DNA of 35,643 nucleotides from positions 1 to 35,643 of the forward strand of contig WTJS01000091.1 of assembly GCA_011524735.1 (NCBI GenBank), given 5' to 3'. The number at the start of each line of letters is the position of its first letter. The stretch's first letter is position 1. The DNA is from Alphaproteobacteria bacterium. GTDB lineage: Bacteria; Pseudomonadota; Alphaproteobacteria; Puniceispirillales; Puniceispirillaceae. Made by a program: the position numbers and the translations under genes. Under the pieces are notes generated by a model. It did no database searches. It was not told the origin of the DNA and was given only the letters and a program-made list of their open reading frames with translations. Of the stretch, positions 11,503 through 22,345 are shown piece after piece.

Positions 11503-12516
11503 ATGGACATGCCAACATCCCTTGAAATGCGGTGCCGCAGTCTTCTGGATGAGCTTGGCCTGCTACCATCTGATGCCAGCCTGTCCGCCGCGCCTCTGTC
11601 AGGCGGCGTGGCCAGTGACATTGCGCGCGTTGCCGTGGGTGATCAGCTCTATTGTGTGAAATTTGCGCTTCCCAAACTTCGTGTTGCAGCAGACTGGTTT
11701 GCACCAGTCGAACGTAATTTTGCCGAATATTCATGGCTGCAGACGGTGGCCTCCATCGCCCCGGAAAACGCAGTTCATCTCTATGGTCATTCCGGTCAGG
11801 CGCATGGATTTGTGATGGAATTCCTGGCTGGCAAAGACACCTATCTGTTGAAAACAGAAATGCTGGCCGGACGGGGACAGGAAAGTGAAGCCGCTGCTAT
11901 CGGCGGATTGCTTGCCCGCATTCATGCCGCATCAACTGTACCAGGGTTTGATGCCTCTCCCTTTGCCAATCAAACTGACTTTCATGCCATCCGAATCGAG
12001 CCTTATCTGGTGCACACAGCCACAAAACATACTGATTTGGCACCCATGATACATGACATGGCTGATGCCCTGTTTACAGCTGACAATGTACTGATACATG
12101 GTGATGTCAGCCCAAAAAACATTATGTTCCGTGGGACGCATCCTTTCATGCTGGATGCTGAATGCGCAACGATGGGTGATGCCTGCTTTGATCTGGCGTT
12201 CTGCCTGAACCATTTCATTCTCAAGGCAGTGCATGTACCAGCACGGCGTGCAGATTATTTGACGTTCTGCTCGACACTCTGGCGGGCCTACGCACCACAG
12301 ATTACATGGGAAGATGCCGCTGGTCTGGAAGCGCGCCTGTGCAGGTTGCTGCCGATGTTGATGCTGGCCAGAGTAGACGGCAAATCACCAGTAGAATATC
12401 TGAATGACCCAAACCGAGACCTTGTCGTGTCTATTTCCTCACCTCTCATTCGCAATCCAGTGCCAGCTCTGTCACAACTGGTTGAAATCATTGAGCAATA
12501 CTTAGGATCATCATGA
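11503..12516 (+). CDS. Aminoglycoside phosphotransferase/choline kinase-like phosphotransferase
   Basis: VLIHGDVSPKNIMF (Brenner motif) and PFMLDAECATMGDACFDLAFCLNHF metal-binding Asp region. Confidence 0.85.
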   Translation: MDMPTSLEMRCRSLLDELGLLPSDASLSAAPLSGGVASDIARVAVGDQLYCVKFALPKLRVAADWFAPVERNFAEYSWLQTVASIAPENAVHLYGHSGQAHGFVMEFLAGKDTYLLKTEMLAGRGQESEAAAIGGLLARIHAASTVPGFDASPFANQTDFHAIRIEPYLVHTATKHTDLAPMIHDMADALFTADNVLIHGDVSPKNIMFRGTHPFMLDAECATMGDACFDLAFCLNHFILKAVHVPARRADYLTFCSTLWRAYAPQITWEDAAGLEARLCRLLPMLMLARVDGKSPVEYLNDPNRDLVVSISSPLIRNPVPALSQLVEIIEQYLGSS

Positions 12517-13814
12517 GCAGCATTTCACAAATCATTGGCCGCAGAGTCTGGGACTCCAGAGGGGTGCCAACCGTTGAGGCCGAAGTCAGACTTGAAGATG
12601 GCAGCGTGGGACGCGCCATTGCGCCGTCAGGTGCGTCGCGTGGCACGCGTGAGGCTTTGGAACTTCGTGATGGCGGAACGCAGATTGGCGGCAAGGATGT
12701 GCAGAATGCCCTTGCCAATCTAACCGGCTCTATCAGTACCTGCCTGATTGGGATGGATGCCTGCACACAGGCCGAAGTTGATGCTGCACTTTTTGATCTT
12801 GATCCCTCCCCTCTGAAGGATTCGATTGGGGGCAACGCGATGATCGCCGCTTCCCTGGCCGTGCTTCATGCCGGAGCAGCATCGAGGCGTCGGCCGTTAT
12901 GGCAGCATGTGTCAGACCTCTATGGCACATCCCCGTCACTGCCGTTGCCCGAAATCCAGATTTTCGGTGGTGGAGCTCATGCCGGTCGCCGGGTTGATGT
13001 GCAGGATTTCATGATAATGGTGCCCGGCGCATCCAGCTTTGGTGAAGTTATGGAAGTGACCCGTGAGGTGTATTTTGCTGCGGGGGATATCATGGCAAAG
13101 CGCGGTAAGGCAGCGGGGATAGCCGATGAAGGAGGGTGGTGGCCCCTGTTCGACAGCAATGAAGAAGCTCTGGAAACACTGGTGGAGGCCATACGCCTTG
13201 CTGGCGAAGTTCCCGGGGAAAGAGTTGTCATTTCACTGGATGTTGCGGCCTCAGAATTTGGCAGTAACGGGCAATACCGTCTGGCGCTAGAAGATCGCGA
13301 TCTTACTTCTGATGAATTGATCGACATGCTGGGCAGCTGGATCGACGCATACCCAATTGTATCCATCGAAGACCCTGTTGGCGAAGATGACCCTTCAGGC
13401 ATGCGGAACTTCACTGCGCGTTTTGGAGACAGAGTTCAGGTCATTGGCGACGACTATCTTGTGACCAACCCGTCCTTGATCAATCAGGCTATCACCGATC
13501 GCGCTGCTAATGCCGTGCTCGTCAAAGTCAATCAGATTGGCACTGTCAGCAAGGCGGTAGAGGCCTTCACCATGGCGCGGGATGCAGGCTGGACAGCGGT
13601 GGTTTCAGCGCGGTCAGGTGAAACTGAAGATTCCTCCATCAGCCATCTGTCAGTCGGTCTTGGTGCTGGACAGTTGAAAGTCGGATCGTTCCAACGTTCA
13701 GAACGTATGGTCAAATGGAATGAATGCCTTCGCATTGCAGACGACCTTGGCGCAGATCAATTTGTCGGCGGCAAGCCACTGGCAGGCACCTGGTGGCGGG
13801 ACTCACTCTCCTGA
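12513..13814 (+). CDS. Enolase paralog (divergent phosphopyruvate hydratase family member)
   Basis: WDSRGVPTVEAEV, PSGASRGTREALELRDG, GGGAHAGRRVDVQDFMIMVPGA, ADEGGWWP, SLDVAASEFG, SIEDPVGEDDP, GDDYLVTNP, VLVKVNQIGTVS, VVSARSGETEDS, KVGSFQRSERMVKWNECLRI; ATGA overlap with upstream gene. Confidence 0.9.
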   Translation: MSSISQIIGRRVWDSRGVPTVEAEVRLEDGSVGRAIAPSGASRGTREALELRDGGTQIGGKDVQNALANLTGSISTCLIGMDACTQAEVDAALFDLDPSPLKDSIGGNAMIAASLAVLHAGAASRRRPLWQHVSDLYGTSPSLPLPEIQIFGGGAHAGRRVDVQDFMIMVPGASSFGEVMEVTREVYFAAGDIMAKRGKAAGIADEGGWWPLFDSNEEALETLVEAIRLAGEVPGERVVISLDVAASEFGSNGQYRLALEDRDLTSDELIDMLGSWIDAYPIVSIEDPVGEDDPSGMRNFTARFGDRVQVIGDDYLVTNPSLINQAITDRAANAVLVKVNQIGTVSKAVEAFTMARDAGWTAVVSARSGETEDSSISHLSVGLGAGQLKVGSFQRSERMVKWNECLRIADDLGADQFVGGKPLAGTWWRDSLS

Positions 13815-20606: not shown

Positions 20607-20903
20607 ATGTATGAGATCACAGAAGACACAATGCAGACGGTTTTGACCCTGAATGGGTCCATAACCATCGAAAACAGCGCCGCACTCAAAAAGCAGCTTG
20701 GTGACCTTGATCCTTCGCAGGATCTAATCGTGCGTTGCGCTGAGCTAGAATATATCGATTCGTCTGGAGTGGCCTGTCTGATCCTTGCTTATACAGCACG
20801 ATCAAAGCGGGGCGCGAAAGTCATTCTGCAGTCTCCATCAGAAGCACTGATGCGTGTACTGGAAATCCTGAAATTCACGGCCTTCTTTACAATCATGGAC
20901 TGA
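20607..20903 (+). CDS. STAS-domain protein (anti-sigma factor antagonist-like)
   Basis: 98 aa; LIVRCAELEYIDSSGVACLILAYTARSKRGAKVILQSPSEALMRVLEILKF, phospho-Ser motif DSSG. Confidence 0.9.
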   Translation: MYEITEDTMQTVLTLNGSITIENSAALKKQLGDLDPSQDLIVRCAELEYIDSSGVACLILAYTARSKRGAKVILQSPSEALMRVLEILKFTAFFTIMD

Positions 20904-22011
20904 AGCAGGCCACGGTGACATCGTCACTCCGCGAATGACCGTCCACTCTCATCATAAGCGCATCAAGCAGATCGCAGCCAAACAAATCGCCAGTTTCAGC
21001 AAGATAACGCGCCACTTCGTGTCCAAACTTATGAGATGCCCGGCCGTGCTCAGCCGCAATATCTGAGAGCCCATCAGTAAAAACAAACAATCTGCGGCCC
21101 TCCAGAGAAAAGGACGATGGTTCAAGGCCTGCATAGACATCTACAGGCAGAAACCCAATAGCCGGCCCTGCCGATGCAACTGTCTCCACATCCCCAGTTG
21201 CAGTGAAAAATACAGGTTCAGGATTTCCCAGATTCAATATCTCAACTGACCTGCCATCTGCAGACTGCCGGACCAAGGTCAATGCCACAAACAGCCCGTC
21301 TGGAAATCTGCCTTCCATCATCGTAATGATGTTACAGGCCAGCGCCGTTAAATTTGGCGCATGGTAATGGGCTCTGAAGGCTGTCATGGTCTGTGCCAGC
21401 ATAATCGCTGCGTAGATTCCCTTACCGGCAACATCACCTGAAATGAAGGTCACACGCCCGTCTTCGTGCGTCACAAGATCGTGAAAGTCACCTGACAGCT
21501 CCTGAACGGGCGCACATCTGGAATCAATGCGGGCGGTCCGGATCTGAGGTGGTACTAGCAAATCCTGAACAGTTGCCGCTTGCTCCAGTTCGTGCTGGAT
21601 TCGGGCGCGCCAGATATTGATTTGCTCCGTCTTTGCCTTGATTTCCCGATTCTGTTTCTCAATGAGGGCGCTGTAACTGGCCAGCATGGCTTCGCTTTTG
21701 GCCACTTCTGAGTTGTCGGTCACAAACCCCAATATCTGATCATCATAGGGTTTGAGTATCACAGTGTATTGCGAGCGCCTGTCTTTGGCGGCTTGCATTC
21801 TGAAGCTATAGGTCTGACCAGCTGTGAACCGACGGGAAAATTTGCGTTCATTGAAGTCATCGCTGACAGATGCGATTTCCTGTCCCTCGATGTTACCAAA
21901 GAGTGACCGGAAAGCATCATTTGTCGCAACGACCTTCAGACCGCCATCCATACGGACAAAAGGAATTTGGAACAGGTCGATCAGGTCAATGTCAGGCTTG
22001 GACAACATCAT
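20893..22011 (-). CDS. PAS-like domain plus SpoIIE/PP2C-type serine phosphatase (RsbU/RsbP-like)
   Basis: N-terminal PAS-like VRMDGGLKVVATNDAFRSLFG; coiled coil; LSGDFHDLVTHEDGRVTFISGDVAGKGIYAAIMLAQ; GNPEPVFF; LFVFTDGLSD; SRSDDVTVACF. Confidence 0.88.
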   Translation of the reverse strand: MMLSKPDIDLIDLFQIPFVRMDGGLKVVATNDAFRSLFGNIEGQEIASVSDDFNERKFSRRFTAGQTYSFRMQAAKDRRSQYTVILKPYDDQILGFVTDNSEVAKSEAMLASYSALIEKQNREIKAKTEQINIWRARIQHELEQAATVQDLLVPPQIRTARIDSRCAPVQELSGDFHDLVTHEDGRVTFISGDVAGKGIYAAIMLAQTMTAFRAHYHAPNLTALACNIITMMEGRFPDGLFVALTLVRQSADGRSVEILNLGNPEPVFFTATGDVETVASAGPAIGFLPVDVYAGLEPSSFSLEGRRLFVFTDGLSDIAAEHGRASHKFGHEVARYLAETGDLFGCDLLDALMMRVDGHSRSDDVTVACFSP

Positions 22012-22345
22012 CTTTCAGGGATGCCAGAAGGCCAACGATGTGCGCCACATCGTCATCCTCCACGCCATTGTCCTCGAGCACATCCTGTGCCGTCTGCGCC
22101 ACCGTGTTAAAGGCTTCTTCAGTGATCCTAAGCCCGGTATGTGCAGCGCTCATCGCCTTGCCAGAATATTGCTGTGGCCCACCCAGAACCTGTGAGAGAA
22201 ACTTGACCTGATGATCCATCAGCGCGCGGATGTCCGAATTCTCGAAATAGGGTGCGGTAATGTCATTGCGCTCCAGCTCGTCATATAGCTCCGAGACAAC
22301 CTTACTGACGGTCTCAAACCCACCATATTTCTCAAACAATGACAT
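21992..22345 (-). CDS. Group 1-like truncated haemoglobin
   Basis: MSLFEKYGGFETVSKVVSELYDELERNDITAPYFENSDIRALMDHQVKFLSQVLGGPQQYSGKAMSAAHTGLRITEEAFNTV: trHb fold pattern with B10 Tyr-like LYDEL and proximal His AAHTGL; RBS GGGGAG upstream. Confidence 0.88.
   Translation of the reverse strand: MSLFEKYGGFETVSKVVSELYDELERNDITAPYFENSDIRALMDHQVKFLSQVLGGPQQYSGKAMSAAHTGLRITEEAFNTVAQTAQDVLEDNGVEDDDVAHIVGLLASLKDDVVQA

Follow-up and report, generated by a model that had tools for sequence, protein, structure and literature searches.

A stand-alone truncated globin encoded with a PAS-linker-PP2C phosphatase and a STAS protein: a candidate two-part haem sensor in Alphaproteobacteria

Introduction

In Bacillus subtilis and its relatives the stand-alone protein RsbQ, an alpha/beta hydrolase, is encoded upstream of RsbP, a PAS–coiled coil–PP2C phosphatase which acts on a STAS antagonist, and it contacts the PAS domain of RsbP; the same partner-PAS pair is found with other outputs, and those described are phosphatase, histidine kinase and diguanylate cyclase, with no class III cyclase among them (PMC3183031; PMC12143880). 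For RsbU it is documented that partner-controlled linker helices dimerise and activate the PP2C domains, and the same has been proposed for RsbP (PMC12143880). Control by haem and O2 upstream of STAS signalling is known from the oxygen-sensing stressosome of Vibrio, in which globin and STAS domain are fused in RsbR (PMC4976288). An alphaproteobacterial set of PP2C phosphatase, STAS protein and RsbW-type kinase, RbaV/RbaW/RbaY, has been described in Rhodobacter capsulatus, and its abstract reports no globin partner (PMC3999984).

The locus presented here lies in a window of 35,643 nucleotides (contig WTJS01000091.1 of GenBank assembly GCA_011524735.1) from a member of the Puniceispirillaceae. 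It resembles RsbQ-RsbP in having a stand-alone partner gene upstream of a PAS-linker-PP2C phosphatase with a candidate STAS antagonist, but the partner is a haem globin and not an alpha/beta hydrolase, and for this reason we rejected membership of the RsbQ-RsbP system, which the locus would resemble in its working only. With the Vibrio stressosome it would share control of STAS-based signalling by the haem ligand state, with the difference that here the globin is a protein on its own, encoded together with a phosphatase. Membership of the globin-coupled sensors or of the globin-STAS RsbR proteins was also rejected, as globin and phosphatase are separate, overlapping genes in all four genomes which carry them; an earlier note, made from the sequence of the window, had described a stand-alone globin in a unit with the phosphatase, and this held in 4/4 genomes. 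Judged by analogy, RsbQ-RsbP is the closest precedent for the mechanism, ahead of the fused globin sensors. The parts are of known families and the logic is RsbQP-like. The open-access literature that was searched contained no description of a globin and PAS-linker pair, which would make it an apparently undescribed two-part gas sensor whose outputs can be exchanged.

Results

The globin gene (21992-22345, minus strand) encodes a group 1 truncated globin of 117 aa, assigned from Pfam, an alignment with HbN and its orthologues. The protein matched PF01152 (Bac_globin) with an E value of 6e-21 (75 bits against a cut-off of 21; a full-length match to the 2/2 globin profile), its best PDB relatives were group 1 HbN/GlbN, and it could be aligned over nearly its entire length with Mycobacterium tuberculosis HbN. 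The HbN alignment placed the haem-pocket residues at Y21 (B10), F34 (CD1), H45 (E10), Q46 (E11) and H69 (F8), all of which were invariant across the four orthologues, while the proximal HisF8 and the distal TyrB10/GlnE11 (H69, Y21 and Q46) were kept in 19/19 globins paired with a PAS-linker protein. Paired globins also carried a helix-E signature, D-H-Q-x-K, which in the window globin reads Asp44-His45-Gln46-Val47-Lys48 (22202-22216, minus strand). D44, H45 and K48 occurred in 19/19 paired globins and in 3, 13 and 3% of 77 others, respectively, and the same comparison gave 95% versus 0% for F10 and 100% versus 12% for D99. Part of this signature is shared ancestry. In other group 1 globins a His at E10 can be the sixth iron ligand, with its release coupled to conformational change (PMC11904497), and from the residue pattern it is possible that His45 is a sixth haem ligand here, giving a predicted bis-histidyl coordination.

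The globin gene overlaps the phosphatase gene by 20 nt, or by 17 nt when the second ATG is taken as the start, in agreement with the 17-20 nt reported earlier. The phosphatase (372 aa; 20893-22011, minus strand) was identified from Pfam SpoIIE (E 6e-22, 79 bits against a cut-off of 25), an AlphaFold2 model, Foldseek and three further orthologues. The model (mean pLDDT 70.9) showed a PAS-like alpha/beta topology at approximately residues 17-99, a long helix at 100-152 between PAS and PP2C with low local confidence, and a PP2C fold. The PAS-like domain was delimited to residues 8-99 (21715-21990, minus strand) from this topology with a local pLDDT mostly of 70-86, and by sequence it was weak, with a match to Pfam PAS_8 (E 0.02-0.05) under the Pfam cut-off. 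Foldseek searches with the model matched the RsbU-RsbW of Rv1364c, RssB, SiaA and SpoIIE, with PAS proteins lower in the ranking. The PAS–coiled coil–SpoIIE/PP2C architecture read earlier from the translation was recovered, its PAS part from the model. The helical linker (residues 100-152; 21556-21714, minus strand) contained the motif ExMxxSYSxxxExxxR, which is common to globin-paired cyclases, and when four phosphatases were compared residues 100-142 were 60% invariant versus 23% for PAS, which is consistent with the linker being a signal carrier. The PP2C catalytic domain (residues 184-369 by Pfam; 20905-21462, minus strand) contained SGD175, GD193, D313-G314 and D363-D364, and the metal-binding acidic residues D175, D193, D313, D363 and D364 were invariant in the four phosphatase orthologues.

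Convergent with the phosphatase gene, and overlapping it by 11 nt, is the gene of a STAS antagonist-like protein of 98 aa (20607-20903, plus strand), as the earlier note had it. It matched PF01740 with an E value of 3e-13 (50 bits against a cut-off of 22.6), and its DSSG phospho-site motif at residues 51-54 (20757-20768, plus strand) was invariant in three orthologues and aligned with the DSSG/DSTG of SpoIIAA/RsbV. The nearest solved structures were anti-sigma-factor antagonists, and the score was slightly under the cut-off of the NCBIfam ant_ant_sig superfamily (48.8 versus 53.5 bits). An identity as MlaB was rejected (NCBIfam mlaB_1, 21.2 bits against a cut-off of 90). Judged from their residues, all three proteins are intact at the sites that matter, the globin in its haem pocket, the phosphatase in its PP2C acidic motifs and the STAS protein in its phospho-site motif.

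The conservation of the neighborhood, which the earlier note had proposed as a check, was strong. Among 136 genomes of the order, which include the window genome G000 (2.4 Mb, 86% complete), a full-length phosphatase orthologue (E < 1e-100) was found in four, G000, G064, G108 and G126, and a full-length globin of the module type lay directly upstream of the phosphatase in exactly these four, with overlaps of 20, 17, 17 and 20 nt, respectively. As the arrangement recurs in three other genomes at identities of 48-54% for the phosphatase and 71-76% for the globin, it is more than chance. Strong STAS orthologues (E < 1e-35) were limited to the same 4/136 genomes; the STAS gene was adjacent in three, being convergent with the phosphatase in G000 and also in G064, where one additional gene lies between the two, and running in the same direction as the phosphatase in G108; the copy in G126 was unlinked. 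The module is patchy, since the phosphatase was absent from the 11 other genomes examined in the genus of the window. A wider contig search for the phosphatase returned only two MAG contigs, matching G126 and G108, while a class-wide phosphatase profile gave no additional full-length orthologue, and plasmids gave partial matches only. As a side observation, a pair of enolase-like and phosphotransferase-like genes adjoins the globin-phosphatase unit in G126 (L022 3197-5609), and the same pair lies approximately 7 kb from the unit in the window (11503-13814).

Searches were extended to 385 alphaproteobacterial genomes. The globins most similar to that of the window stood upstream of a gene for a PAS–helix–class III cyclase: this was the case at 14 of the 17 best loci, the window excluded, and at 2 of 72 further globin loci examined. 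The phosphatase and cyclase linkers aligned without gaps over E-x-M-x-x-S-Y-S-x-x-x-E-x-x-x-R, and a PAS+linker profile built from both kinds gave 17 strong matches (E < 1e-19) in the same genomes, every one immediately beside a globin match. Seven of these 17 rows are part of the profile and were picked for their adjoining globin, so that they are not independent, and the other 10 stand outside the profile and are also all globin-adjacent. Two weak matches (E 3e-5 and 5e-4) were multi-domain proteins without a globin. The PAS-linker/globin pairing is near-obligate in the class. Sixteen of the strong matches had a class III cyclase as output, and one, that of the window, had PP2C. The proposal of a haem-gated partner-switching module was supported in part, for its neighborhood and its residues. 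The usual output of globin and PAS-linker in the wider class is a class III cyclase. The PAS domain of the phosphatase on its own was not significant against the cyclase PAS, the shared signal being mostly in the linker with PAS adding to it, and homology of the PAS domains for this reason rests on PAS+linker together with the model.

In the alignment of nine cyclases the two metal aspartates are retained throughout and the substrate position is occupied by Lys or Arg, a combination typical of adenylate cyclases. Both outputs occur in succession in G064, in the gene row globin–PAS-PP2C–PAS-cyclase. In a globin tree (quick method, 120 columns) the cyclase-paired globins clustered, and as it gave no clear order of branching between them and the phosphatase-paired clade we claim no direction for the output swap. 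The cyclase-type modules have the layout of soluble guanylate cyclase (H-NOX, HNOBA/PAS, signalling helix, cyclase), with haem sensor, PAS, helix and class III cyclase, and HNOBA passed its Pfam cut-off in L085 (24.2 versus 23.4 bits), but their haem module is a globin on a separate chain, and the output in the window is PP2C. A pair of the same PAS-linker family and globin type, with D-H-Q in helix E and the two genes 4 nt apart, is present on plasmid pLA3 of Novosphingobium pentaromativorans US6-1 (WP_007014575, WP_007014576); it differs in its cyclase output and in Gln rather than Lys at position 48, and carries a domain-only annotation (adenylate/guanylate cyclase). Three minor observations concern individual cyclase loci. 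On pLA3 (L193, 266769-276216) two-component-system genes follow the globin/cyclase pair and two oxidoreductase genes precede it; in-frame stops interrupt the cyclase effector gene in two of the 16 cyclase cases, L184 (G342) and L188 (G162), from decay or assembly error; and the PAS-linker class III cyclase paralogue of G064 (L021 9195-10262) has lost its metal-binding Asp residues, which suggests that it is probably an inactive pseudo-cyclase.

The window encodes no RsbW-like kinase, as had been noted before. The genome-wide search which followed from that observation succeeded in part: an RsbW-type HATPase kinase is present in the three near-complete carriers G064, G108 and G126, while the 86%-complete assembly of the window genome gave only sub-cut-off matches in long frames, none of them on the window contig. 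That assembly has a second STAS gene, which has pilin and PilT genes as neighbors and is cut off by the end of contig C59, and because C59 ends where phosphatase and kinase would follow, absence of the kinase from the assembly does not equate to its absence from the organism; the missing kinase is probably due to the contig break. In related genomes the cassette is STAS–GAF-PP2C–RsbW kinase, usually by PilT/pilin genes and often by an Mla operon (L076, L077, L073/L074, L075, L078 and L079, in G078, G124, G126, G108, G125 and G130). In the complete genome G064 the globin-paired phosphatase is the sole SpoIIE phosphatase and there is a single stand-alone RsbW-type kinase, 4 kb from it behind an MlaEFD-lipoprotein operon. 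G064 has no GAF-PP2C/STAS pair and the globin module occupies that locus, and this replacement speaks most strongly for a joint working of the globin-paired phosphatase, the STAS protein and the G064 kinase.

Discussion

We consider it probable that the locus encodes a haem sensor in two parts which has partner switching as its output and in which a dissociable globin would bind the PAS/linker dimer and gate the phosphatase toward the STAS protein. The stand-alone globin, with HisF8, TyrB10, GlnE11 and HisE10, would bind a diatomic ligand, O2 or NO being the likeliest, and binding or release, perhaps by displacement of HisE10, would move helix E. Docked on the phosphatase dimer at the PAS domain and the helical linker, the globin would set the linker conformation according to its ligand state and hence turn PP2C activity on or off; active phosphatase would dephosphorylate the neighboring STAS protein, which may then bind an RsbW-type kinase or anti-factor and alter its hold on a target. 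This order of events is proposed from the RsbQ-RsbP, RsbU linker and Vibrio haem-O2 precedents together with the conservation of the linker. Against this reading stand the non-significance of PAS alone, the unlinked STAS gene of G126 and the kinase not found in G000, and co-transcription could have other reasons.

The target of such a switch need not be a sigma factor. In an alternative which changes the output and leaves the sensor as it is, the STAS protein or its kinase would control a system of the membrane or the cell surface, for example Mla lipid transport or type IV pili, and we regard this as possible, if the less likely course. The STAS gene of G064 is divergent from mlaE-F-D-lipoprotein genes, the canonical STAS/GAF-PP2C/kinase cassette of the order lies beside PilT/pilin and in several genomes Mla genes, and the Rhodobacter capsulatus study identified no sigma factor cognate to RbaW, RbaV being the determinant (PMC3999984). 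However, the STAS protein scores better as an anti-sigma-factor antagonist (49 bits against a cut-off of 53) than as MlaB (21 against 90), its gene is not beside Mla genes in the window or in G108, and the Mla operon of the window genome is on another contig.

Two further alternatives concern the globin itself. It may be an enzyme, for example an NO dioxygenase or peroxidase, which produces or consumes a small molecule that the PAS domain senses, without any docking; the pairing would then reflect provision of the PAS ligand, as proposed for RsbQ. Its TyrB10/GlnE11 pair is the same as in M. tuberculosis HbN, a known NO dioxygenase. The catalytic triad of RsbQ is needed for activation of RsbP, but the RsbP substitution F55A breaks direct RsbQ binding (PMC3183031). 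Since the element most common to phosphatase and cyclases is the linker and not the PAS core, and since the charged helix-E residues of the paired globins are unnecessary for catalysis, we hold the enzymatic role to be improbable. Truncated globins often act in O2/NO chemistry, and the globin could merely protect against NO or peroxide, co-regulated with the phosphatase and not controlling it, but this is just as unlikely given that in 17/17 strong cases the globin is paired with a single PAS-linker family, whose two output domains are unrelated, and that the second globin of the window genome (contig C278) is of a different sequence type, with neighbors which read as glutamate dehydrogenase and deacetylase genes and no signalling gene near.

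More widely, a family of split gas sensors in Alphaproteobacteria seems to us somewhat better than an even proposition: a dissociable truncated globin with a HisE10 switch, possibly bis-histidyl, would be the regulatory subunit of PAS–signalling-helix proteins which are normally adenylate-type class III cyclases and here a PP2C phosphatase writing O2/NO state into a STAS switch. If true, such a family would parallel the RsbQ-PAS module and soluble guanylate cyclase, with a globin as the sensor. Truncated haemoglobins are widespread, yet they are frequently without an assigned partner, and here a subclass adjoins a specific PAS-linker protein in every strong case. Should gating hold, the result would be a globin sensor split over two chains, with outputs that can be exchanged. 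Effectors under linker control would then be seen to accept interchangeable sensors (hydrolase, RsbT, globin) and outputs (phosphatase, cyclase, kinase), and partner switching in marine alphaproteobacteria would gain an O2/NO input. The signature residues of the globin offer concrete mutation targets for the sensor hypothesis.

Other combinations of globins were seen in the class. At L099 (1046-1492) the gene after a globin of the same clade encodes a short PAS-like protein (~146 aa) without an output domain. In other alphaproteobacteria, at L103, L105/L129, L140, L142, L144, L149 and L162, long frames (~450-1200 aa) include group 1-like globin domains, either one or two, and in one case the protein is CheA-like.
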